Position numbers and translations under genes: made by a program
Source: Sessilibacter corallicola
Lineage (GTDB): Bacteria > Pseudomonadota > Gammaproteobacteria > Pseudomonadales > Cellvibrionaceae
Direction: 5' to 3'
Assembly: GCF_021290925.1 (NCBI RefSeq)
Contig: NZ_JAJSLX010000001.1
Coordinates: 620,001-684,000 of the forward strand
DNA length: 64,000 nt
Part shown: positions 28,998-38,873 of the stretch, one piece after another
How the letters are laid out: each line of letters begins with the position of its first letter
How positions within the stretch are numbered: the stretch's first letter is position 1
The notes under the pieces: model-generated
Database searches by the model: none
What the model was told of the DNA's origin: nothing
What the model saw: only the letters and a program-made list of their open reading frames with translations

Positions 28998-30206
28998 ATG
29001 AACGCACAACAAACAGTACAAAAAGCCCCGATATTACTGCTTGCATTAACGGTGGCTTTAACGCCCTTTTCAATCGATGCCTATCTTCCAGCATTACCCA
29101 CCATCGCTGAAGAATTTAATACCAGCATCCACTACATTGAATTGTCTATCAGCTTTTTCTTGGTCGGTTACGCCATTGGCCAGCTGTGCGGCGGACCCAT
29201 TTCCGATTCTATTGGTCGACGAAAATCGATTTTTATCGGGCTCACGTTATTTTGCGTTGGAACCGTGGCGGTTATTTTATCGAACTCGCCCGAAACCCTT
29301 TGGATTTCAAGATTCATTCAAGCCATTGGTGGCGGACTCACTGGCGTTAATCCTCCAGCAATCATTCGCGATGTTAGCAGCGGCCGAGAAGCGGCCAGAA
29401 ATTTAAGCAGAGTGGTCATAATTATGATGATCGCACCGCTGATCGCGCCAATTATTGGCACGAGTATTTTAGCGGTATCCAATTGGCACGCTATTTTTGT
29501 TTTTCTGTTGGTTTACGCGCTGGGAATATTCATCACGGTAACACTAAAACTGCCCGAAACCCGAAGATTGCCAAGCCAGACAACGCCAATAAAAAAAGAA
29601 AACGCGTTACAAAAATATCTCTACGTGGCTAAAAATCGCTATGCGATGGGGTATGTGTTTGCCAATTGCTGCTCTTACGCCGGATTGTTTGCCTACGTCA
29701 CCACAGCATCGTTTATTTTTATTGAATACTTTGGCTTCACCAAAGAAGTGTTCCCCATTTTCTTTGCCATTAACGTTGCAACTTTGGCCGCTTTTAACCG
29801 AGTGAACGTTCACCTGTTGAGTTATTACAACCCACACCAACTCCTAACAGCGGGGCAAGTTGCTTTATTTTCGGTATCGGTGGTTATCTTTCTCTATTGT
29901 TATTTAACGCCAAGCCCTTCGCAGTGGGTGTTCATCCCATTGCTCGTGGCCTATTGCGCGGCGTTGGGTTTGATTTCATCAAACGCCACAGTTTCGACCA
30001 TTGAATACTTTCCCAATCACGCAGCGACAGCCACTGCATTTATTGGAGCGAATTCATTTTTGTGGGGAGCGGGTTCTGGATTTGTCTACGCGTATTTTGC
30101 CGATGGCTCGTTAACACCTATCGCGGCGGTGTTTTTAGGCGCATCGGCACTGGGAATTTGTTTGAGGAATATCTTGCAGATTAAAGGAACACCGAGCATT
30201 CAGTGA
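28998..30206 (+). CDS. Bcr/CflA-family drug resistance MFS transporter
   Basis: 402-aa protein with 12 predicted membrane helices. TPFSIDAYLPALPTIAEEFN at about residues 22-41 and the motif GPISDSIGRRKSIFIGL (MFS motif A) are typical of Bcr/CflA drug:proton antiporters, as is the RFIQAIGGG helix. Such proteins export bicyclomycin, chloramphenicol-like or sulfonamide compounds; the substrate here is unknown. An intrinsic terminator directly follows. Confidence 0.9.
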   Translation: MNAQQTVQKAPILLLALTVALTPFSIDAYLPALPTIAEEFNTSIHYIELSISFFLVGYAIGQLCGGPISDSIGRRKSIFIGLTLFCVGTVAVILSNSPETLWISRFIQAIGGGLTGVNPPAIIRDVSSGREAARNLSRVVIIMMIAPLIAPIIGTSILAVSNWHAIFVFLLVYALGIFITVTLKLPETRRLPSQTTPIKKENALQKYLYVAKNRYAMGYVFANCCSYAGLFAYVTTASFIFIEYFGFTKEVFPIFFAINVATLAAFNRVNVHLLSYYNPHQLLTAGQVALFSVSVVIFLYCYLTPSPSQWVFIPLLVAYCAALGLISSNATVSTIEYFPNHAATATAFIGANSFLWGAGSGFVYAYFADGSLTPIAAVFLGASALGICLRNILQIKGTPSIQ

Positions 30207-30210
30207 AAAT

Positions 30211-30238
30211 AAAAGCCGCATAAAGCGGCTTTTATTTT
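30211..30238. terminator. Bidirectional intrinsic terminator
   Basis: AAAAGCCGC (30211-30219), loop ATAAA, GCGGCTTTT (30225-30233), followed by ATTTT. It ends the MFS gene and, read on the other strand with the AAAA side, also lies at the stop of the convergent VPELN-tail gene. Confidence 0.9.
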
Positions 30239-30863
30239 AAGCGACTCGTATAACTTCTTTTCGGCGAGTTTGCTGTAGCATTAAACAACTAAGTATTAGC
30301 GCTGCAACAATCACTGCCCAGTCACCATTCAACTCAGGAACAGCGGTTACCGTTCCAGAAGTAGAAAAGTCTTTTACAGAGCCTTCACGATCATCGCCTA
30401 CTTGCAATGCGCGAATAGCTGCTAATGTAAAAGTACTTTCGGTGAGAGGTTCACCAAATGAAGGTAAACCAAAAGAAAAACTGCTAACGAAATCCTGACC
30501 TAAACGACCGATAGAGAAAGTATATTCAGGCGATATTCCGGTACCGTTAAAATTACACGCACCATTACATCGACCTACACCAACGCCATCAGTATAACTT
30601 TCGATAAGATCAAGGTTTAAACCACTTGTGCCGTAATTTACACTGGAATCAAAACCAAAACCGATCACATCACCCAAAAGGGATTGGTCACCGATGTCGA
30701 TATTGAAAGTATAAAATCCGTCGTTAGTGGTATCGTCAACAGTAACTTGCCAATCAATTTCATCACTGGTGTTATAAACCCAATTTCCGAAACTGACTGA
30801 AGTCGCTTGCGTTTGTGCCGAAGCAAAAACCATCATTAAAGCAACAATTACCAGACGTAACAT
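30237..30863 (-). CDS. Secreted protein with VPELN C-terminal sorting tail
   Basis: 208 aa. The N-terminus (MLRLVIVALMMVFASAQTQA) is a Sec signal peptide; the middle is a beta-rich, Gly/Asp/Ser-rich domain with two Cys in GRCNGACNF, like many PEP-CTERM proteins. The C-terminus is VPELN, a hydrophobic helix (VIVAALILSCLML) and a basic TRRKE end. The same VPELN/helix/Arg layout occurs in the two small genes next to exosortase E 2 kb further on, so it is probably a third XrtE substrate. GGGAGG precedes ATG 30863. Ligand or function of the beta domain unknown. Confidence 0.75.
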   Translation of the reverse strand: MLRLVIVALMMVFASAQTQATSVSFGNWVYNTSDEIDWQVTVDDTTNDGFYTFNIDIGDQSLLGDVIGFGFDSSVNYGTSGLNLDLIESYTDGVGVGRCNGACNFNGTGISPEYTFSIGRLGQDFVSSFSFGLPSFGEPLTESTFTLAAIRALQVGDDREGSVKDFSTSGTVTAVPELNGDWAVIVAALILSCLMLQQTRRKEVIRVA

Positions 30864-31173
30864 TGTCGTGCCTCCCGCACTTGATTGAAGTATCCACTGA
30901 TATAATCCAAAAAAATCAGCTGCACAAATCTAACACAAAGTGAGAACTAGCTCACCAAAACCGTCAAATCTATCAGTTGTTTTTACACGATTTTATAGAT
31001 TTACAAATTTTGAATAATCAATTTTTTAAATACATAAGCCGCAAACCAGCCTCCAATTCAGACAGGGCTTAATTAGATAAATCAAGTTTTCAAGAAGCGG
31101 TGAATTGATGTGCAAGCTTTTAACGAAAGGAGGGGTAATAGAGTGGATTTTTCAACCGAATAAACACCAAAAT

Positions 31174-31223
31174 CCAAAATTTCACTTTCCCTAAATATAA
31201 GGTTTTATATTTAGGGATTTTGG
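31174..31223. other. Long palindrome downstream of the NIT-like gene
   Basis: CCCTAAATATAA (31189-31200) and its exact complement (31205-31216) flank loop GGTT; an outer pair CCAAAAT (31174-31180) / ATTTTGG (31217-31223) brackets it. It lies 80 bp beyond the stop of the 31303-32244 gene and may end that transcript, though the T-run is poor. The rest of 30864-31302 holds nothing else recognised. Confidence 0.5.
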
Positions 31224-31302
31224 CAGACCGATCCAAGTTATCGAGGCAGTTTTATACTCTATTCAAAAACGCAAAACTGTATACAATTTTTATCAGTATT
31301 AT

Positions 31303-32244
31303 TTAGCTGTATTTAAACCAGTGCTCTAACGATTGCTCTTGCCAATTAACCAACAAAGACAAACCTTCGTCGACCACTTTTAAATAGACATCAATAATCT
31401 CTGTGGCTAATTCAAACAGTTGTCGGCTGTTCATGGTAATGACTTTTGATTCAAGGATTTCGCGTTCAACGGTTGTCATTAAAAACAGTAATTTGAATTC
31501 ATACGCTTTAATCAACGGCAACGACTGAATGTTGTTATCAGTGACTTCTAATAAGCGATCCGCCTGATTGCGAACTTTTTCATGTTGCACACGGGTGCCT
31601 TGGATAAAGTAACGTAATTTGCTCGATTCCAACTCATCCTGGCTGCCGCGGCTCGATGCCAAGGTTGATAAACCGCGAATCTTTGCGACTAATTCCACCA
31701 GCGCTGGCAATTGGTTGCAAACAAACACCAACAGGCCCACCTGACTGAACATTTGTTTGCGAGGTTCTAGCTGTGAAACGATTCCATCGTCTTGATTGGC
31801 ATCGGCAAATTGGACGGCAACAGGTCGCTCTAGGTAGCGAGCCAAAATCATCATGAGCTGAAGTAACTGCTCGATAAAATGGGAGTGGTACTCGAAATTT
31901 TCCATCACCGAGTCACCCTGCCAATCTCGCTCGATGGTCGACCAAGCGGCACTTAATTTTTCCAATTGTGCGGGCGCGAGTAAGTTGTTTGATTGTCCTG
32001 CGAACGCTTGCAGTACTTGCATCCGACGGGTGACTTGTTTTTGTAAAGTTGAGAATTCTTCCTCGAACTCTTCATAACCGGCAATCAGTGACATCCCTAA
32101 ACCACGATGACGTTGGATCGCACGGCACAAGTGGCTAATTTGTTTGATTAAACTGAGCGCCATTAACCTCTCGTTGTAGTTCTGACAAGCTACAACCAAA
32201 TTCCCACTGCTCATTTTCTGTTCTGCTGTTGTTTGATTTTTCAA
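31303..32244 (-). CDS. Helical protein, possibly nitrate/nitrite-sensing (NIT) domain-like
   Basis: 313 aa by a TTG start at 32244; ATG 32214 is an alternative, and neither has a good ribosome binding site. The protein is almost wholly alpha-helical with no signal or membrane segment. LIKQISHLCRAIQRHRGLGMSLIAG near the N-terminus and LVAKIRGLSTLASSRG in the middle look like the two QxxRG-type helices of NIT sensor domains, which bind nitrate or nitrite in some regulators. No DNA-binding or signalling output domain is attached. Assignment is weak. Confidence 0.5.
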   Translation of the reverse strand: MKNQTTAEQKMSSGNLVVACQNYNERLMALSLIKQISHLCRAIQRHRGLGMSLIAGYEEFEEEFSTLQKQVTRRMQVLQAFAGQSNNLLAPAQLEKLSAAWSTIERDWQGDSVMENFEYHSHFIEQLLQLMMILARYLERPVAVQFADANQDDGIVSQLEPRKQMFSQVGLLVFVCNQLPALVELVAKIRGLSTLASSRGSQDELESSKLRYFIQGTRVQHEKVRNQADRLLEVTDNNIQSLPLIKAYEFKLLFLMTTVEREILESKVITMNSRQLFELATEIIDVYLKVVDEGLSLLVNWQEQSLEHWFKYS

Positions 32245-32720
32245 AATAATGTCTGATCGCTTGTTAATCTGGGGCTGAATTTTTCATCGATTCAATGGCC
32301 ACCTTACCGATACAGGTAATTACCCAATAAATAATGCCAGAATTTAGCAAGTGGTGTACCAGCCACTTTAGGGCCTAGGTTCCACGCTTTGCCGAATTGA
32401 AAGCACCAAAATAGGACATTTGTACTTTTTGTAATCACCAATACCGAACACAAATTCAAATATATATTGATTTATTCGATTAAAAAGGTAGTGTAAGAAC
32501 CAAATACGAGCCAATTTAGGTCACACTTACTCGCGGTAATCCCATAGCAGTTCCATTAGCAATTGTATAACCAAATGGAACTAGTATTTTCTACAGCTAT
32601 AACAAGCATTCAAAAGACACCCCTTCTTATGTTATAAATGTCTTAGTAAAGGAGTTTGTTATCTATTAATGGACGAATGTAAAAACAGCTGTACTCAAAT
32701 CAACTTTACGCAACTACTGA

Positions 32721-32782
32721 TTGACACTTTTTACCGCGACTAAGATCATACTTAACAGATCGTATACGTGACCTAAATCACG
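32721..32782 (+). promoter_or_regulatory. Promoter box and CRP-like site of the first VPELN gene
   Basis: TTGACA at 32721-32726 with GATCAT 17 bases later (4 of 6 matches to TATAAT) and, at 32767-32782, the palindrome CGTGA-CCTAAA-TCACG, which fits the CRP/FNR-superfamily half-site spacing. The same elements are kept in the duplicated copy. Position of the palindrome downstream of the TTGACA promoter would suit repression; an activated promoter further downstream is also possible. Confidence 0.5.
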
Positions 32783-32991
32783 CTTTTGGGTGCTGATGTA
32801 AATAATGTATTTAACATGATTTGCACACATATCGCCCAATGTGTTGTTTTTTGAATCACAATTTTTGTGCACTTCAAAGATAACTTAGCCACGGTTTGCG
32901 TTATGTTGAGGGGTTTATTTTGTTGCGTTGTAATTTTTGTCTGGTCAAAAAGTGTTTGCTGTCGGTATAAATCAACGCAAAGGGAAACGCT

Positions 32992-33318
32992 ATGAAATTT
33001 TTGCTTAAATCTTTCGTTTTAGCTTTAGCATTAGGCGCAACATCTTCTGCTTTCGCGGACTCAAACCCAATCAGTTCTTTACTTTCTGATTTTACTGTTG
33101 TCTCTCCTCAACCTCAAAGCGCATCTGGCTCTGATCTTTTCTGTAGTCTTTTTCCTGCTCGGTGTGAAGGAAAGAAGAGATACCCAAACAAAGATCCAAA
33201 ACCAGTACCTGAGTTAAATGCAGCAGCGGCACCAATCTCTGCAGCTATCGCTCTTAGTGCACTTGCTCTAGGTGCGGAACGCCGTCGTCGTAAGCTTAAA
33301 ATTCAGCGTAACGGCTAA
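32992..33318 (+). CDS. Small secreted VPELN-CTERM protein 1 (exosortase E substrate)
   Basis: 108 aa: Sec signal peptide MKFLLKSFVLALALGATSSAFA, a short variable centre (with FCSLFPARCEGKKRYPNKDP), then VPELNAAAAPIS, a hydrophobic helix ALSALALG and the basic end ERRRRKLK. This is the VPEID-CTERM-type tripartite signal cut by exosortase E, with VPELN as the local variant. AAAGGG precedes the ATG. The tail is nearly identical to that of the next gene while the centre differs, so selection acts on export and sorting. Function of the mature peptide (roughly 50 residues) is unknown. Confidence 0.85.
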   Translation: MKFLLKSFVLALALGATSSAFADSNPISSLLSDFTVVSPQPQSASGSDLFCSLFPARCEGKKRYPNKDPKPVPELNAAAAPISAAIALSALALGAERRRRKLKIQRNG

Positions 33319-33338
33319 TTTTAGGTTTTCGAAGTCAA

Positions 33339-33370
33339 AAAATGTGAAGCTTCGGCTTCGCATTTTTGTA
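33339..33370 (+). terminator. Intrinsic terminator after VPELN gene 1
   Basis: AAAATGTGAAGC (33339-33350) and GCTTCGCATTTT (33355-33366) form a 12-bp stem with one T-G wobble and a TTCG tetraloop, followed by TGTA after the T-run. It separates the two duplicated small genes, so each copy is its own transcript. Confidence 0.9.
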
Positions 33371-33572
33371 GTCCTTATTAAGGATATTAGTTTTATCGCG
33401 AACGCAATTTCCTATTGCAATCGTCGTGTTAGATTTTAGTTGTTCATTCAAAAGTACCTGCATTTGCGTACATATGTTTATTAGTAAATCCGCATCTGCT
33501 AAGCGATTTTTATTTATTTAATGAATAAATGTAAAAAGAGTTGTACTTAAACCATCTTTACGTGACAGACAA

Positions 33573-33634
33573 TTGACACTTTTTTCTGTGATTGAGATCA
33601 TACTCAACAGATCGCAAGCGTGATCTTAATCACG
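33573..33634 (+). promoter_or_regulatory. Promoter box and CRP-like site of the second VPELN gene
   Basis: TTGACA (33573-33578), GATCAT 17 bases later, and the palindrome CGTGA-TCTTAA-TCACG at 33619-33634, in the same order and spacing as upstream of the first copy. A second perfect palindrome, TTTTGATATATCAAAA, lies at 33655-33670 in this copy only. Confidence 0.5.
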
Positions 33635-33845
33635 TTTTGAACAACTGTGTTGCTTTTTTGATATATCAAAAGCTGCATGTAGATTGATCAAAATGTTCAT
33701 TTTGAGATTACAATTTTTGTGTATTGCAACGGAAATCTAACCACGGTTCCACGCTCTGGTGGGAAGGTCACTTTTTGTTGCCTACAAATGCGGTCTCATC
33801 AAAAGGTGTCTGTGGTCGGTAAATATCAACGCAAAGGGAAACGCT

Positions 33846-34220
33846 ATGAAATTCTTGCTTAAATCTCTCATTTTAGCTTTAGCATTAGGCGCTACTTCTT
33901 CTGCTTTCGCGAACTCTAATCCAGTAAGTTCTGTTCTAACCGATTTATCGGACTTTACTGTTGTATCTCCTGAACCTCAAAGCTTCTTCTTCGATTTTTT
34001 CTGGAAGCCTAAAAAAGGTAAGGGCAAAGGCAAAGGTAAGGGTAGAAAATGTTATTTCTTCTACTTCTGTAAAAAGCCTGGTCCTAAGGACGATCCAAAA
34101 GCGGTACCAGAGTTGAATGCAGCAGCTGCACCTATTTCAGCGGCTATCGCTCTTAGCGCATTAGCGTTAGGTGCTGAGCGTCGTCGTCGTAAGTTGCAGG
34201 TTGAGCGTACTAACGCTTAA
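33846..34220 (+). CDS. Small secreted VPELN-CTERM protein 2 (exosortase E substrate)
   Basis: 124 aa from ATG 33846; the ORF is open further upstream but the duplicated start context (AAAGGGAAACGCT before ATG) and the signal peptide MKFLLKSLILALALGATSSAFA fix the start. The variable centre has aromatic patches (SFFFDFFW, CYFFYFC) around a GKGKGKGKG lysine/glycine repeat. The end is VPELNAAAAPIS, hydrophobic helix and ERRRRKL as in copy 1. A strong terminator and then xrtE follow, 215 bp after the stop. A cell-surface peptide or polymer-binding role is possible but unproved. Confidence 0.85.
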   Translation: MKFLLKSLILALALGATSSAFANSNPVSSVLTDLSDFTVVSPEPQSFFFDFFWKPKKGKGKGKGKGRKCYFFYFCKKPGPKDDPKAVPELNAAAAPISAAIALSALALGAERRRRKLQVERTNA

Positions 34221-34238
34221 TTTTCTGGCTCGATCGAG

Positions 34239-34268
34239 AAAAAAGCGAAGCTCTAGCTTCGCTTTTTT
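34239..34268 (+). terminator. Intrinsic terminator after VPELN gene 2
   Basis: AAAAAAGCGAAGC (34239-34251), loop TCTA, GCTTCGCTTTTTT (34256-34268): a 13-bp stem ending in a T-run. It isolates the small gene from xrtE. Confidence 0.95.
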
Positions 34269-34435
34269 TATGCCTGACTGTTTTCCTGGTCTAACAACCT
34301 AGAGCCCCAGCGATACTATGGCCTAAGGAATCTGAGTTTTTACGTAAAAGCATTTGAATCACAATCATTTGATCCGTATGGTTCTAGCCCTCATGGATTG
34401 AACTCAGTAATTTCAAAGTAATTTGGCGCCTTCAC

Positions 34436-36040
34436 ATGACTCTTCGCATAGCAGCTATTGCCTTACTCCTGGTCGAAGTTTTAATTATTAGTGTAAGTTT
34501 TGATGCTCAACCGCTGAAAAACTTGGTCGACTCACAAGCCGCATTCCTCTTTTCTAATTTATCCCTAGTTATTGTTTGGTTAAGTGCTTACTTTGGTGCT
34601 TATTTGGTTGTCTTACTGACTCAACAAACAGAGCCTGTAGCACAACCTGTGAGCTACGCTCCTGTAACCACAAAATCAGCGGGAGCATTCTTCGCCTTTA
34701 ATCTTGCCGCGTTTGCCTTTTTCTTTTGGGCAACCAGCTTTTTATTCGCCGAACGTACCGTCATCGACTCTGAATTTTGGTTGGTGTTTTTAACTTGGTG
34801 TGTGTTGGGCGCACTGGTATTTGTGTCTATTTTGGCGGTTGTTTATCACTGGAATTCTTGGCTGAGCAGACTGACACAACACAAGTCGACAATTGCCTTG
34901 TGCGTATTGTTGGCAACCGTGGTATCAAGTACATCGCTGTTGGCGAAAAACCTGTGGCCGTCATTCATTCAACCCACGTTTGCGCTTTCAGAAGTGATTT
35001 TGTTTTCGGTATTTGGCGAAGTTTATACCGATCCAGAAGCGCTAAATTTGGGATTGGAATACTTCATCGTCAACATCTCATCTGAGTGCTCTGGCATTGA
35101 AGGAATGGGCCTTGGTTTTTGCTTTACCATGCTCTATTTGTACTTGTACCGATCCCAACTGAAATTCCCAATCGCACTCATTTTGCTGCCAATCGCGGTG
35201 GCATTAAGCTGGCTCTTTAACGTTATTCGTATCTGCCTGCTTATTTTTATCGGCGAGTACATTTCCAGTGACTTCGCGATCGGTGGTTTTCACAGCCAAG
35301 CGGGTTGGTTTACCTTTATCGCGTTGGCCTTGATCATCATTTACCTGTTCGACAAAATCCCGTTCATTAAGAAGCGACAAGAAGAATCGGCACAACAAAC
35401 CGAGCAAGCCCTTGCACCGGATTACGTTGCAACAGCGATTATTTCCACATTTATTGTCTTTCTGTTGTGTTCTCTAATCTCAGGTTTTGACGAAAGCACG
35501 GTCAACTGGCTGTACCCAGTAAAAGCCCTGGGCTCGATGGCGGCAATTCTCTATTTTTGGAAACGCTTCGAACTCACAGCGCCGAGCCGCTGGTTAGAAT
35601 CGGTGGCATTGGGATTGGTGGTTACGTTGGTATGGGTGCTGCTCATCCCAGAAGATACGGAATACAACCAAACTTTTGCAACCGCCCTGGGTGAAGAATC
35701 AACGACGATGATGTTGGTGTGGTTAGCGATTCGCTTCTTGGGCTCAATCGCAGTAGCACCTATTGTTGAAGAATTAATGTTCCGCGGCTATTTGCTCAGT
35801 CGCGTCGCGGCCCATGAAATACATGAGCGCTCGCCGCAAATCAATTTGTTCGCGATTGTCATCTCTTCTCTCGCCTTTGGTGCCATTCACAATCAATGGA
35901 TCGCAGGCACCGCAGCTGGTGTGCTCTACGCAGTCGTTAGATTACGCGGCAATCTAAGCTCGGCCATTCTGGCGCACAGTGTAACCAACGCGAGCTTATG
36001 TGTTTACGCGTTAACCCACGGCCAATGGTCCTACCTGTAA
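34436..36040 (+). CDS. xrtE: Exosortase E fused to CPBP protease (VPEID-CTERM system)
   Basis: 534-aa polytopic membrane protein. The N-terminal half is an exosortase: catalytic Cys in SSECSGIEGMG (C218), Arg in FNVIRICLL (R255) and His in GGFHSQAGW (H276). The C-terminal half is a CPBP glutamic protease: EExxxR as VEELMFRGYLL (E435, E436, R440), then AFGAIHNQW and ILAHSVTNA. This fusion defines exosortase E of the VPEID-CTERM system. The substrates are the two small genes just upstream and probably the 30237-30863 gene. It is likely to cut and transfer the VPELN-tailed proteins. The start lacks a clear Shine-Dalgarno sequence. Confidence 0.92.
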   Translation: MTLRIAAIALLLVEVLIISVSFDAQPLKNLVDSQAAFLFSNLSLVIVWLSAYFGAYLVVLLTQQTEPVAQPVSYAPVTTKSAGAFFAFNLAAFAFFFWATSFLFAERTVIDSEFWLVFLTWCVLGALVFVSILAVVYHWNSWLSRLTQHKSTIALCVLLATVVSSTSLLAKNLWPSFIQPTFALSEVILFSVFGEVYTDPEALNLGLEYFIVNISSECSGIEGMGLGFCFTMLYLYLYRSQLKFPIALILLPIAVALSWLFNVIRICLLIFIGEYISSDFAIGGFHSQAGWFTFIALALIIIYLFDKIPFIKKRQEESAQQTEQALAPDYVATAIISTFIVFLLCSLISGFDESTVNWLYPVKALGSMAAILYFWKRFELTAPSRWLESVALGLVVTLVWVLLIPEDTEYNQTFATALGEESTTMMLVWLAIRFLGSIAVAPIVEELMFRGYLLSRVAAHEIHERSPQINLFAIVISSLAFGAIHNQWIAGTAAGVLYAVVRLRGNLSSAILAHSVTNASLCVYALTHGQWSYL

Positions 36041-36120
36041 ACAGCACTCAATATTTGTTGCTGACTTAGACCTAATCTGGTCTTGGTCAGCCAAATCGGC
36101 TCTGTTCATCTCTACATTAA

Positions 36121-36162
36121 AAAGCCTTGTTTACGCGAGAGTGTTCGTGTGAACAGGGCTTT
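36121..36162 (+). terminator. Hairpin after xrtE
   Basis: AAAGCCTTGTT (36121-36131) pairs with AACAGGGCTTT (36152-36162) with one G-T wobble across a 20-nt loop. There is no T-run. A second, imperfect stem CTGAC..AGACC / GGTCT..GTCAG precedes it at 36061-36090. Confidence 0.4.
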
Positions 36163-36269
36163 CGTTAAATGCACTGCAAGTTAACATCGCATTCTCTAAA
36201 GCAGTTACCTATAATTGCCAGCTTTCATTTGAACACAACGATTTCATCCAATTAGGTGCAGTTACTGCG

Positions 36270-38873
36270 ATGACAGACCAATACAACCCCGCCGATGTTG
36301 AAGCGAAGGCTCAACAATTCTGGGAAGCCGAGCAAACGTTTAAAGTTACCGAAGACACAAGCAAAGAAAAATACTACTGTCTGGCCATGTTCCCCTACCC
36401 CAGCGGCAAGCTGCATATGGGACACGTGCGTAATTACACCATCACCGACGTTATTGCACGCTACCAAAGAATGCTGGGTAAAAACGTTCTCCACCCAATG
36501 GGTTGGGACGCCTTTGGTCTGCCAGCGGAAAACGCCGCCATTCAAAACAAAACCGCGCCAGCGAAGTGGACCTACAGCAATATCGATTACATGAAATCCC
36601 AGCTCAAAAGCTTGGGCTTTGGTTTCGATTGGTCGCGCGAACTGGCCACGTGTCAAAACGAGTACTACCGTTGGGAGCAATGGTTTTTCACTCGCTTGTA
36701 CGAGAAAGGCTTGGTCTACAAAAAAATGGCCACCGTTAACTGGGATCCAGTCGACCAAACCGTGCTTGCCAACGAGCAAGTGGTCGATGGTCGTGGCTGG
36801 CGTTCTGGCGCGTTAATCGAGCGCAAAGAAATTCCTCAGTGGTTTATTAAAATCACCGACTACGCCGAAGAATTGTTAACCAGTCTCGATAAGCTCCCTA
36901 ATTGGCCTGAGCAAGTTAAAACCATGCAACGCAATTGGATTGGCAAATCCAAAGGTGTTGAATTGTGGTTTGATTTACCCGAAACCATTGCCGAATTGGA
37001 TTCGTTCAGTGTTTACACCACACGCCCAGATACCTTAATGGGTGTGACTTACGTCAGCCTTGCCGCTGAGCACCCAATTTCTTTGGAGCTTGCCAAATCC
37101 AATCCTGAATTGGCCGCGTTTATCCAAGACTGCAAAAAGCAAAGTGTCGCCGAAGCCGATATGGCTTCTATGGATAAAAAAGGGTTGTATTCCGGTATCG
37201 ACGCAAAACACCCAATCACGGGTGAATCGATTCCAGTGTGGATTGCCAATTACGTGTTGATGGATTACGGCTCCGGCGCGGTGATGGCAGTTCCCGCCCA
37301 CGACGAACGCGACTACGAATTCGCTAAAAAGTACGACTTGCCATTAAAACAAGTGATTAAAGGCGGTAAAGACGACGACCTAAGCCAAGCCGCAATCACC
37401 GAAAAAGGCGAGTTAATGAACTCCGGTGAAGGCTTTGAACACTGGGATGGCTTGAACTTTAAAAAAGCCTTCTCGGCCATTGCCCAACACTTAAAGTCGA
37501 TTAATAAAGGCGAAGTGCAAACCAACTACCGTTTGCGCGATTGGGGCGTTTCTCGTCAGCGTTACTGGGGCACCCCCATTCCAATGTTGAATTTGGCCGA
37601 CGGCACCGAAATTCCGGTTCCTGCAGACCGCTTACCGGTATTGTTGCCAGAAGACGTTGAAATGGACGGCGTAAGCTCGCCGATTAAATCCGATCCCGAC
37701 TGGCGCAAAGCCGGTGAAATCAACGGCGTAGTCGCCGAGCACGAAACCGATACCTTCGATACCTTTATGGAATCGAGCTGGTATTACGCGCGCTTCACCT
37801 GCCCGAATTTCCAAGACGGTATGCTAGATAAAACCGCAGCCGATTACTGGTTGCCAGTAGATCAATACGTCGGCGGTATCGAGCACGCAATTTTGCACTT
37901 GTTGTACGCGCGCTTCTTCCACAAATTAATGCGTGATGAAGACTTAATCAGCTCTGACGAACCCTTCGAACGCTTACTTTGCCAAGGCATGGTACTGGCG
38001 GAATCTTTCTTCAAAGAAAACGAAGATGGTTCAAAAACCTGGTTTAACCCAGCGGAAGTTTCGTTAGAAAAAGACAACAAAGGCAAAATTCTTTCGGCGA
38101 GCCATCCCGATGCGGGCGAATTAAGTCTCGGCGGCACCACCAAAATGTCGAAATCAAAAAACAACGGTGTTGATCCGCAATCGACCGTTGATAAATACGG
38201 AGCCGATACCGTGCGTTTGTTTGCAATGTTTGCCGCGCCTCCTGAGCAGACCCTCGAATGGCACGATTCTGGTGTTGAAGGCGCAAGCCGCTTCTTACGC
38301 CGTTTCTGGAAAACCGTTCACGGACACATTCAAGCGGGCACACCTTCGGCATTGAATGTTGAAGCACTGTCTGGCGAGCAAAAGCAATTGCGCCGCAAAA
38401 TCCACGAAACCATTCAAAAGGTTTCCGACGATTTCGGTAAGCGTTTAACGTTCAATACCGCCATCGCTGCAGTGATGGAGTTGCTGAACGACGTCACTAA
38501 ATTCGCCGATCGCTCAACGCCAGAAACCTTAGCCGTAGAACGCGAAGCACTCGAAGCCATGACATTGGTATTGGCTCCAATTGCACCGCACATTTGTCAC
38601 AGCATTTGGCAAGATCTAGGCAACAGCGGCAGCATCGTCGATGCCACTTGGCCAAGCGTTGATGAATCCGCTTTGGTACGCGATTCATTGCATTACGCGG
38701 TTCAGGTAAACGGTAAAGTTCGCGGCGAAATCGACGTGCCAGCCTCTGCGAGCGACGACGAAGTCATCGCCACTGCTAAAGCGGACCCGAATGTATCGAA
38801 ATTCTTGGAAGGCAAAGAGATTAAAATGAACAAAGTCATCAAAGGCAAATTGGTGACTTTCGCGGTGAAATAA
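36270..38873 (+). CDS. leuS: Leucyl-tRNA synthetase
   Basis: 867-aa class I aminoacyl-tRNA synthetase. The HIGH-type motif is HMGH in [15 protein letters not shown] (residues about 43-57), the CP1 editing domain ([13 protein letters not shown]) sits in the middle, and KMSKS is at [11 protein letters not shown] near residue 627. Length is typical. Followed by an intrinsic terminator, then lptE-holA, the conserved gammaproteobacterial order. Confidence 0.97.

Follow-up and report, generated by a model that had tools for sequence, protein, structure and literature searches.

A predicted exosortase E locus with a VPELN tag variant and two small upstream tail genes in Sessilibacter corallicola

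PEP-CTERM/exosortase A systems, for which choice-of-anchor type passengers are known, combine an exosortase-family enzyme with proteins bearing tripartite tails. Here we report a locus of the same general kind in Sessilibacter corallicola (Cellvibrionaceae), situated in a stretch of 64,000 nucleotides (the window; positions 620,001 to 684,000 of contig NZ_JAJSLX010000001.1, assembly GCF_021290925.1), in which the gene of an exosortase fused to a CPBP protease (xrtE) follows two small tail genes, P1 and P2. The locus very probably represents an exosortase E sorting system in which XrtE would cut proteins with VPEL[N/S] tails and hand them to a surface anchor, P1 and P2 being old paralogues of a small upstream partner. 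It shares with the exosortase E/VPEID-CTERM system (models TIGR04162 and TIGR04161) the enzyme architecture, a small tail protein encoded directly upstream and the tripartite tail; it differs in that the tag is VPEL[N/S] and unmatched by TIGR04161, the small gene is duplicated, and the same tail is borne by a 208-aa protein and three choice-of-anchor-L proteins. The locus with the nearest enzyme found, that of Marinibactrum halimedae, also has a small upstream tail protein, but in a single copy with the tail VPELD. No study of an exosortase E system was found in the literature searched, most subscription journals lying outside its coverage; curated models exist.

Rhombosortase/GlyGly-CTERM systems likewise join one intramembrane enzyme to many tripartite tails, and in one-target genomes enzyme and target are mostly adjacent; rhombosortase is, however, an unrelated serine protease, and its adjacency is nearly always lost where targets are many, whereas it is kept at the window locus (PMC3237569). 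The myxosortase MrtX and MrtJ/JDVT-CTERM involve CPBP-family enzymes that process, or are predicted to process, C-terminal tags, and MrtJ forms a two-gene pair with its target; these are separate CPBP enzymes with other tag motifs, whereas the CPBP half in the window is fused to an exosortase (PMC11980579). The Haloferax archaeosortase pathway needs two lipid-synthesis enzymes (PMC7157517).

The enzyme and the tail proteins of the genome

The product of xrtE matches TIGR04162 (exosortase E/protease, VPEID-CTERM system) with 237.3 bits over model positions 70-514 of 516 (cut-off 150) and PF02517 (CPBP glutamic protease) with 55.7 bits (gathering cut-off 22.4), and also exceeds the cut-off of PF09721. 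Judged by these models the enzyme is exosortase E; exosortase A, and with it a PEP-CTERM identity, was rejected (XrtA model, 35.6 bits against a cut-off of 208). The residues that correspond to the catalytic ones of these families are Cys218, Arg265 and His286 in the exosortase half and E445, E446, R450, H485 and H514 in the CPBP half; in an alignment of the window enzyme with 34 others (n = 35), H514 is conserved in at least 90% of the sequences and all the others are invariant. XrtE is the sole exosortase-family match in the genome at E ≤ 0.1. Its AlphaFold model has a mean pLDDT of 88 and gave no Foldseek match at E ≤ 0.001; a weaker structural match to SpdC (6u0o; residues 360-532, Z 7.9, rmsd 4.2, 138 aligned) is middling and comes from a comparison in which only XrtE residues 1-152 were well sampled by rows. 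A sequence search of solved structures returned nothing relevant (single match at E 0.34).

A search of the whole genome with a profile of all tails yielded six matches at E ≤ 2.1e-13, the next being at 0.097, and because of this gap the tail is not a product of chance. The six are P1, P2, the 208-aa protein and three unlinked choice-of-anchor-L proteins (NF038133; 163.3, 121.8 and 110.6 bits, cut-off 27), signal peptides being called by eye and by a crude rule. Four of the tags read VPELN and two VPELS, so that VPE is kept in 6/6 and Asp is absent from residue 5 throughout. A profile built from three larger tails recovered all six (three by construction), a small-tail profile found P1 and P2 only (E ≤ 0.01), and a DNA pattern for VPELN had nine matches in the genome, four of which belong to the six. 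The tails show the features of the VPEID-type functional class: a VPE motif, a helix and a basic C-terminal end on signal-peptide proteins, co-occurring with exosortase E.

The gene order in the window is P1, P2, xrtE and then a large open reading frame (ORF) at 36270, which we take to be leuS. The other coordinates are given in Table 1; those of P2 refer to an internal ATG start, a longer GTG start also being in the ORF list. P1 and P2 share the N-terminus MKFLLKS..LALALGATSSAFA, carry VPELNAAAAPISAAIALSALALGAERRRRKL near the C-terminal end and have a 31-residue tail of identical protein sequence. A preliminary description of this DNA, made from its letters alone, had placed two small signal-peptide proteins with VPELN/helix/Arg tails directly upstream of a Cys/Arg/His exosortase of type E fused to a CPBP protease; the ORFs, their translations and the model matches bear this out, and the genome-wide tail search that it proposed extends the set to six. 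The gene of the 208-aa protein is a third VPELN-tail gene of the window that it had missed. This protein has no Pfam or NCBIfam match at E ≤ 1, its predicted structure is of no use (pLDDT 39), and it has an orthologue (69% identical) in another genome of the genus, G125.

A gene for a Bcr/CflA-type MFS efflux transporter adjoins the 208-aa tail gene, and a 313-aa ORF without a Pfam or NCBIfam match at E ≤ 1 lies between that tail gene and P1. An Rfam scan of positions 30000-36500 showed no family at its gathering score.

Co-occurrence and tag variation in other genomes

XrtE exceeds its cut-off in 11/144 genomes of a family sample and in 7/390 of an order sample. The tail occurs in 12/144 and 8/390, namely in those 11 genomes plus G125 and in those seven plus G446. 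The match in G446 is doubtful (E 0.004, without a readable tail). In G125, 250 bases separate the end of the tail gene from a contig end. A different contig closes with the C-terminal 31 residues of an exosortase E (58% identical), next to the counterpart of the leuS-like gene; G125 therefore most likely possesses an xrtE split by an assembly gap. Three further genomes (G111, G323 and G379), with scores over the CPBP part that stay under the cut-off, were left out of the exosortase E count. VPELN tails without xrtE, which the preliminary description had named as evidence against its own reading, are thus confined in these samples to G125 and the doubtful G446. Comparative genomics shows the predicted enzyme and its putative tail to be paired.

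Exosortase E neighbourhoods were scanned in named genomes (80 stretches, the best of 211 related ones in a single collection), and 86 exosortase E rows were obtained, mostly from those stretches with further genomes added, five rows being second copies of a locus. Another 12 fetched loci were dropped before this count because the pattern used saw no exosortase E frame; it was too strict, as L191 and L193 at least hold exosortase E. A tail protein was encoded within 2.5 kb on the same strand in 66 of the 86 rows and upstream of the enzyme in 63, nine of which (the window included) have tandem small tail genes in 2-4 copies. To have a small tail protein encoded immediately upstream is a widespread trait of exosortase E loci.

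The commonest tag beside exosortase E is VPEID, and APEID, VPELD, VPEMD, VPEFD, VPEIN, VPEMS and others also occur. On a quick tree of 78 enzymes, from which eight rows (duplicates and fragments) were left out, residue 5 of the tag switched between Asp and other residues at least seven times. The enzyme of Marinibactrum halimedae (L029), with the tag VPELD, is sister to XrtE in this tree (42-43% identical, SH-aLRT 100). On comparison of these sequences VPELN is a local version of a drifting VPEID tag, as had been supposed from the DNA of the window alone.

In genome G003, where one exosortase E was found, the tails read VPEID, VPELD and VPELN, and because of this mixture residue 5 is not strictly read everywhere. 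Its VPELD and VPELN tails belong to two long open frames (580 and 570 aa; L127, L133) that lie 2 kb apart, and the exosortase E partner has VPEID. Genome G368 holds two exosortase E genes (L190, L191), a VPEID mini-protein lying directly upstream of one and a VPEIN mini-protein directly upstream of the other, and G310 also has two, with no tail seen beside the second. Covariation between an exosortase loop (Tyr at the position of residue 221) and the tag was examined on the 78-row tree with the 60 rows that have both traits, and was rejected: for tail residue 5 the raw p was 0.043, but only 6 independent pairs remained on the tree, with the loop unchanged in 4.7, and for tail residue 4 p was 1.

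Near exosortase E, 7/81 sources, of various groups, have a gene of the fatty-acid hydroxylase family, which is directly downstream in three of them. As a partner of the system it was rejected, since close relatives occur in 30/144 family genomes without association (3/12 with exosortase E, G125 counted, and 27/132 others).

Duplication, upstream elements and cores of P1 and P2

The duplicated unit is a direct repeat of about 337 bases of upstream DNA, a small gene and a terminator-like hairpin. Between the two copies, 228/337 positions are identical in the upstream DNA (67.7%), in agreement with the roughly 330 bp of duplicated upstream DNA first described; the signal peptide (61/66, 92%), the following stretch (51/63) and the tail (76/93, 82%) are more similar than the core (42/81, 52%, with 42 gap columns). 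An A-run, a hairpin and a T-run follow each copy, as expected from the claim that each has its own terminator, but a consensus terminator scan listed neither hairpin on the + strand and only that of P1 on the - strand, so that the label rests on the inverted repeats. The position of the hairpins after each small gene suggests that P1 and P2 are mostly expressed on their own, xrtE lying behind a terminator or being reached by read-through.

Each copy has an upstream promoter-like element, TTGACA-N17-GATCAT, and 18 bases beyond it a palindrome matching GTGANNTNANTCAC. The two palindromes are the only matches to GTGANNTNANTCAC in the window (0.14 expected), and promoter-like sites as a class show no excess in the region (6 found against 7.7 in shuffles). 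Such counts prove little, because the patterns were picked post hoc and the two copies are duplicates. Better support comes from G125, in which both elements recur at equal spacing in upstream DNA that is otherwise only ~50% identical, with GTGACATGATTCAC at the place aligned with the P2 palindrome. The palindromes look CRP/FNR-like, and a regulator of CRP/FNR type is our guess from them.

The tails of P1 and P2 are under strong constraint (dN/dS about 0.03/1.07). Their synonymous divergence (1.07) resembles that between species (0.98 for P1 and G125; 0.98 and 1.57 in all), and in the signal-peptide region it is 0.21; synonymous changes number 3 at ~16 sites in the 5' part and 15 at ~26 in the tail (p about 0.02, few sites). 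Since the tails have diverged like those of different species and the 5' parts are much closer, these values suggest that the duplication is old and that the 5' part was exchanged later, rather than that the copies diversified recently. Both genes have the look of old paralogues, with 5' parts that seem partly homogenised, as by gene conversion.

The core of P2 shares two segments with the protein of G125, FFDxFWKPK (8/9 residues; 9 codons, dN 0.04, synonymous sites saturated) and C-x5-CKKP (6/10; 10 codons, dN 0.22 against dS 0.3), the latter with a mild excess of change that may be real, although the codons are few. Of the tail proteins collected (124 different), 108 had a signal-peptide call, and 84 of these measure at most 180 aa. 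In these 84 small proteins the stretch from the cleavage site to the tag has a median length of 37 residues, and in 13 it is at most 8 by the crude cleavage rule; on visual inspection, many cores abound in Gly, His, Lys or Pro. A C-x3-P-x(2,4)-C motif, defined post hoc, is found in 8/84 cores from distant groups (0.29 in shuffles), including two sets of close relatives (L019/L020 and L121/L122), and is a lead only.

Table 1. Coordinates of the features discussed (window positions, or positions in the named locus).
Feature	Position	Strand	Remarks
P1	32992..33318	+	108 aa; signal peptide, core with CSLFPARC, VPELN tail
P2	33846..34220	+	124 aa; signal peptide, core with FFDFFWKPK, GK-repeat, CYFFYFCKKP; VPELN tail
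Predicted sorting tail of P1	33205..33315	+	VPELN, hydrophobic helix, RRRRK cluster; tail profile E 9.6e-12
Predicted sorting tail of P2	34104..34217	+	VPELN, hydrophobic helix, RRRRK cluster; tail profile E 9.6e-12
xrtE, exosortase fused to CPBP/CAAX-type protease	34436..36040	+	534 aa; TIGR04162, PF09721, PF02517
208-aa VPELN-tail protein	30237..30863	-	~2 kb from small genes, 3.5 kb from xrtE; tail profile match
Terminator-like hairpin after P1	33338..33367	.	flanking A and T runs; 13-nt arms, 92% complementary
Terminator-like hairpin after P2	34239..34268	.	flanking A and T runs; 14-nt arms, 100% complementary
Promoter-like element upstream of P1	32721..32749	+	TTGACA-N17-GATCAT; pattern match
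Promoter-like element upstream of P2	33573..33601	+	TTGACA-N17-GATCAT; pattern match
Palindrome upstream of P1	32768..32781	+	GTGACCTAAATCAC; matches GTGANNTNANTCAC
Palindrome upstream of P2	33620..33633	+	GTGATCTTAATCAC; matches GTGANNTNANTCAC
Bcr/CflA-type MFS efflux transporter gene	28998..30206
313-aa ORF	31303..32244	-
C-x3-P-x(2,4)-C loop carriers			P1 (32992-33318), L019, L020, L052, L081, L094, L121, L122
Fatty-acid hydroxylase genes near exosortase E	L034:2175-3047, L043:7333-8175, L044:7292-8152		also L096, L097, L104, L108

Sorting model and competing readings

In the sorting system proposed here, P1, P2, the 208-aa protein and the three choice-of-anchor-L proteins would be exported by way of their signal peptides, and the C-terminal helix with its cytoplasmic Arg cluster would keep them in the inner membrane. 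XrtE would then cut at or near VPEL[N/S] and transfer each protein to a surface anchor, and the CPBP half may have a separate role, such as trimming the leftover tail helix; cleavage, anchor and CPBP role are all suggested by analogy. By analogy with sortase, archaeosortase, rhombosortase and myxosortase (PMC11980579, PMC3237569, PMC7157517), XrtE probably takes off the tail helix, and the protein stays on the surface, joined to a new anchor. P1 and P2 would most likely end up on the surface as short, anchored and largely disordered proteins, each with a single Cys-Cys pair and expressed from a promoter of its own.

Several points weigh against this reading. TIGR04161 (VPEID-CTERM, cut-off 33 bits) has no match at E ≤ 1 to P1, P2 or the 208-aa protein and none to the three choice-of-anchor-L proteins, and it matches six relatives and the G125 protein below its cut-off (13.6-24.8 bits). 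No adjacent tail protein was found by the pattern used in 20 of the 86 exosortase E rows, which are themselves a selected sample. Fisher tests of co-occurrence (p ~1e-15 for the family and ~3e-14 for the order) ignore phylogeny, being without correction for kinship. The family result is also partly circular, since its profile derives from tails found next to XrtE in the very genomes surveyed. This circularity does not touch the absences, nor five of the seven order genomes with XrtE, which played no part in making the profile.

A rival reading to which we give a low probability is that the small proteins are not cargo and act through their tails as obligate activators, partners or pacing substrates of XrtE. 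It would account for a small partner beside XrtE across several phyla, with passengers of ~2 to >100 residues, and for its staying there even where the other tails are unlinked. The rows without an adjacent tail protein and the core segments conserved between species speak against it; moreover, MrtJ (PMC11980579) and one-target rhombosortase systems (PMC3237569) also pair an enzyme with an adjacent ordinary target. A related and comparably speculative thought is that exosortase E retains a mini-substrate with almost no passenger, in which the tail does the work (for instance as activator, priming substrate or minimal surface anchor), while ordinary surface proteins are sorted by the same enzyme, and that tag residue 5 (Asp or Asn/Ser) may set private channels. 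The six tags of the window genome, all without Asp, and the VPEID and VPEIN mini-proteins of G368 are in favour of such channels, and the mixed tags of G003 are against them.

Still less probable is the view taken in the preliminary description, by which P1 and P2 would be secreted signalling or antimicrobial peptides under diversifying selection, with XrtE freeing the cores. The cores of the two proteins do differ, their Cys loops are unlike (C-x3-P-x2-C in P1, C-x5-C in P2), tandem copies recur among the loci with an upstream tail, and the Bcr/CflA-type efflux transporter gene lies 3 kb upstream, though nothing ties the transporter to P1 or P2. The alignment of loci that it had called for did find strongly constrained tails, but it found conserved segments in the P2 core as well; the copies are not recent, and some relatives are almost coreless. 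The claim of diversifying selection is therefore not supported, and surface anchoring, by analogy with the studied sorting enzymes, fits P1 and P2 better than a secreted peptide family. That the tails are plain membrane anchors, linked to xrtE by inherited neighbourhood only, is highly improbable: any helix that carries an Arg cluster may serve to keep a protein in the inner membrane, and xrtE and the small genes are neighbours, but four of the six tails are out of line with xrtE (one at 3.5 kb on the opposite strand, the other three distant), the VPE motif persists in each of the six, and no tails were found in the XrtE-negative genomes of both samples apart from the two cases described above.

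The locus belongs to an established kind of system, here with a local variant of the tag and two copies of the small partner. Because the altered tag is also found on four larger proteins of the genome beside P1 and P2, the analysis supports a real enzyme-and-tag system and not a set of fast-changing secreted peptides. The curated tail model TIGR04161 misses the VPEL[N/S] group. With one enzyme, two linked mini-substrates and four other proteins with one altered tag, the locus is a compact test case, as the two exosortase E genes of G368 are a natural test of tag specificity. It raises the question of what role is played by the mini-substrates so often kept beside exosortase E, which in some lineages have hardly any passenger.

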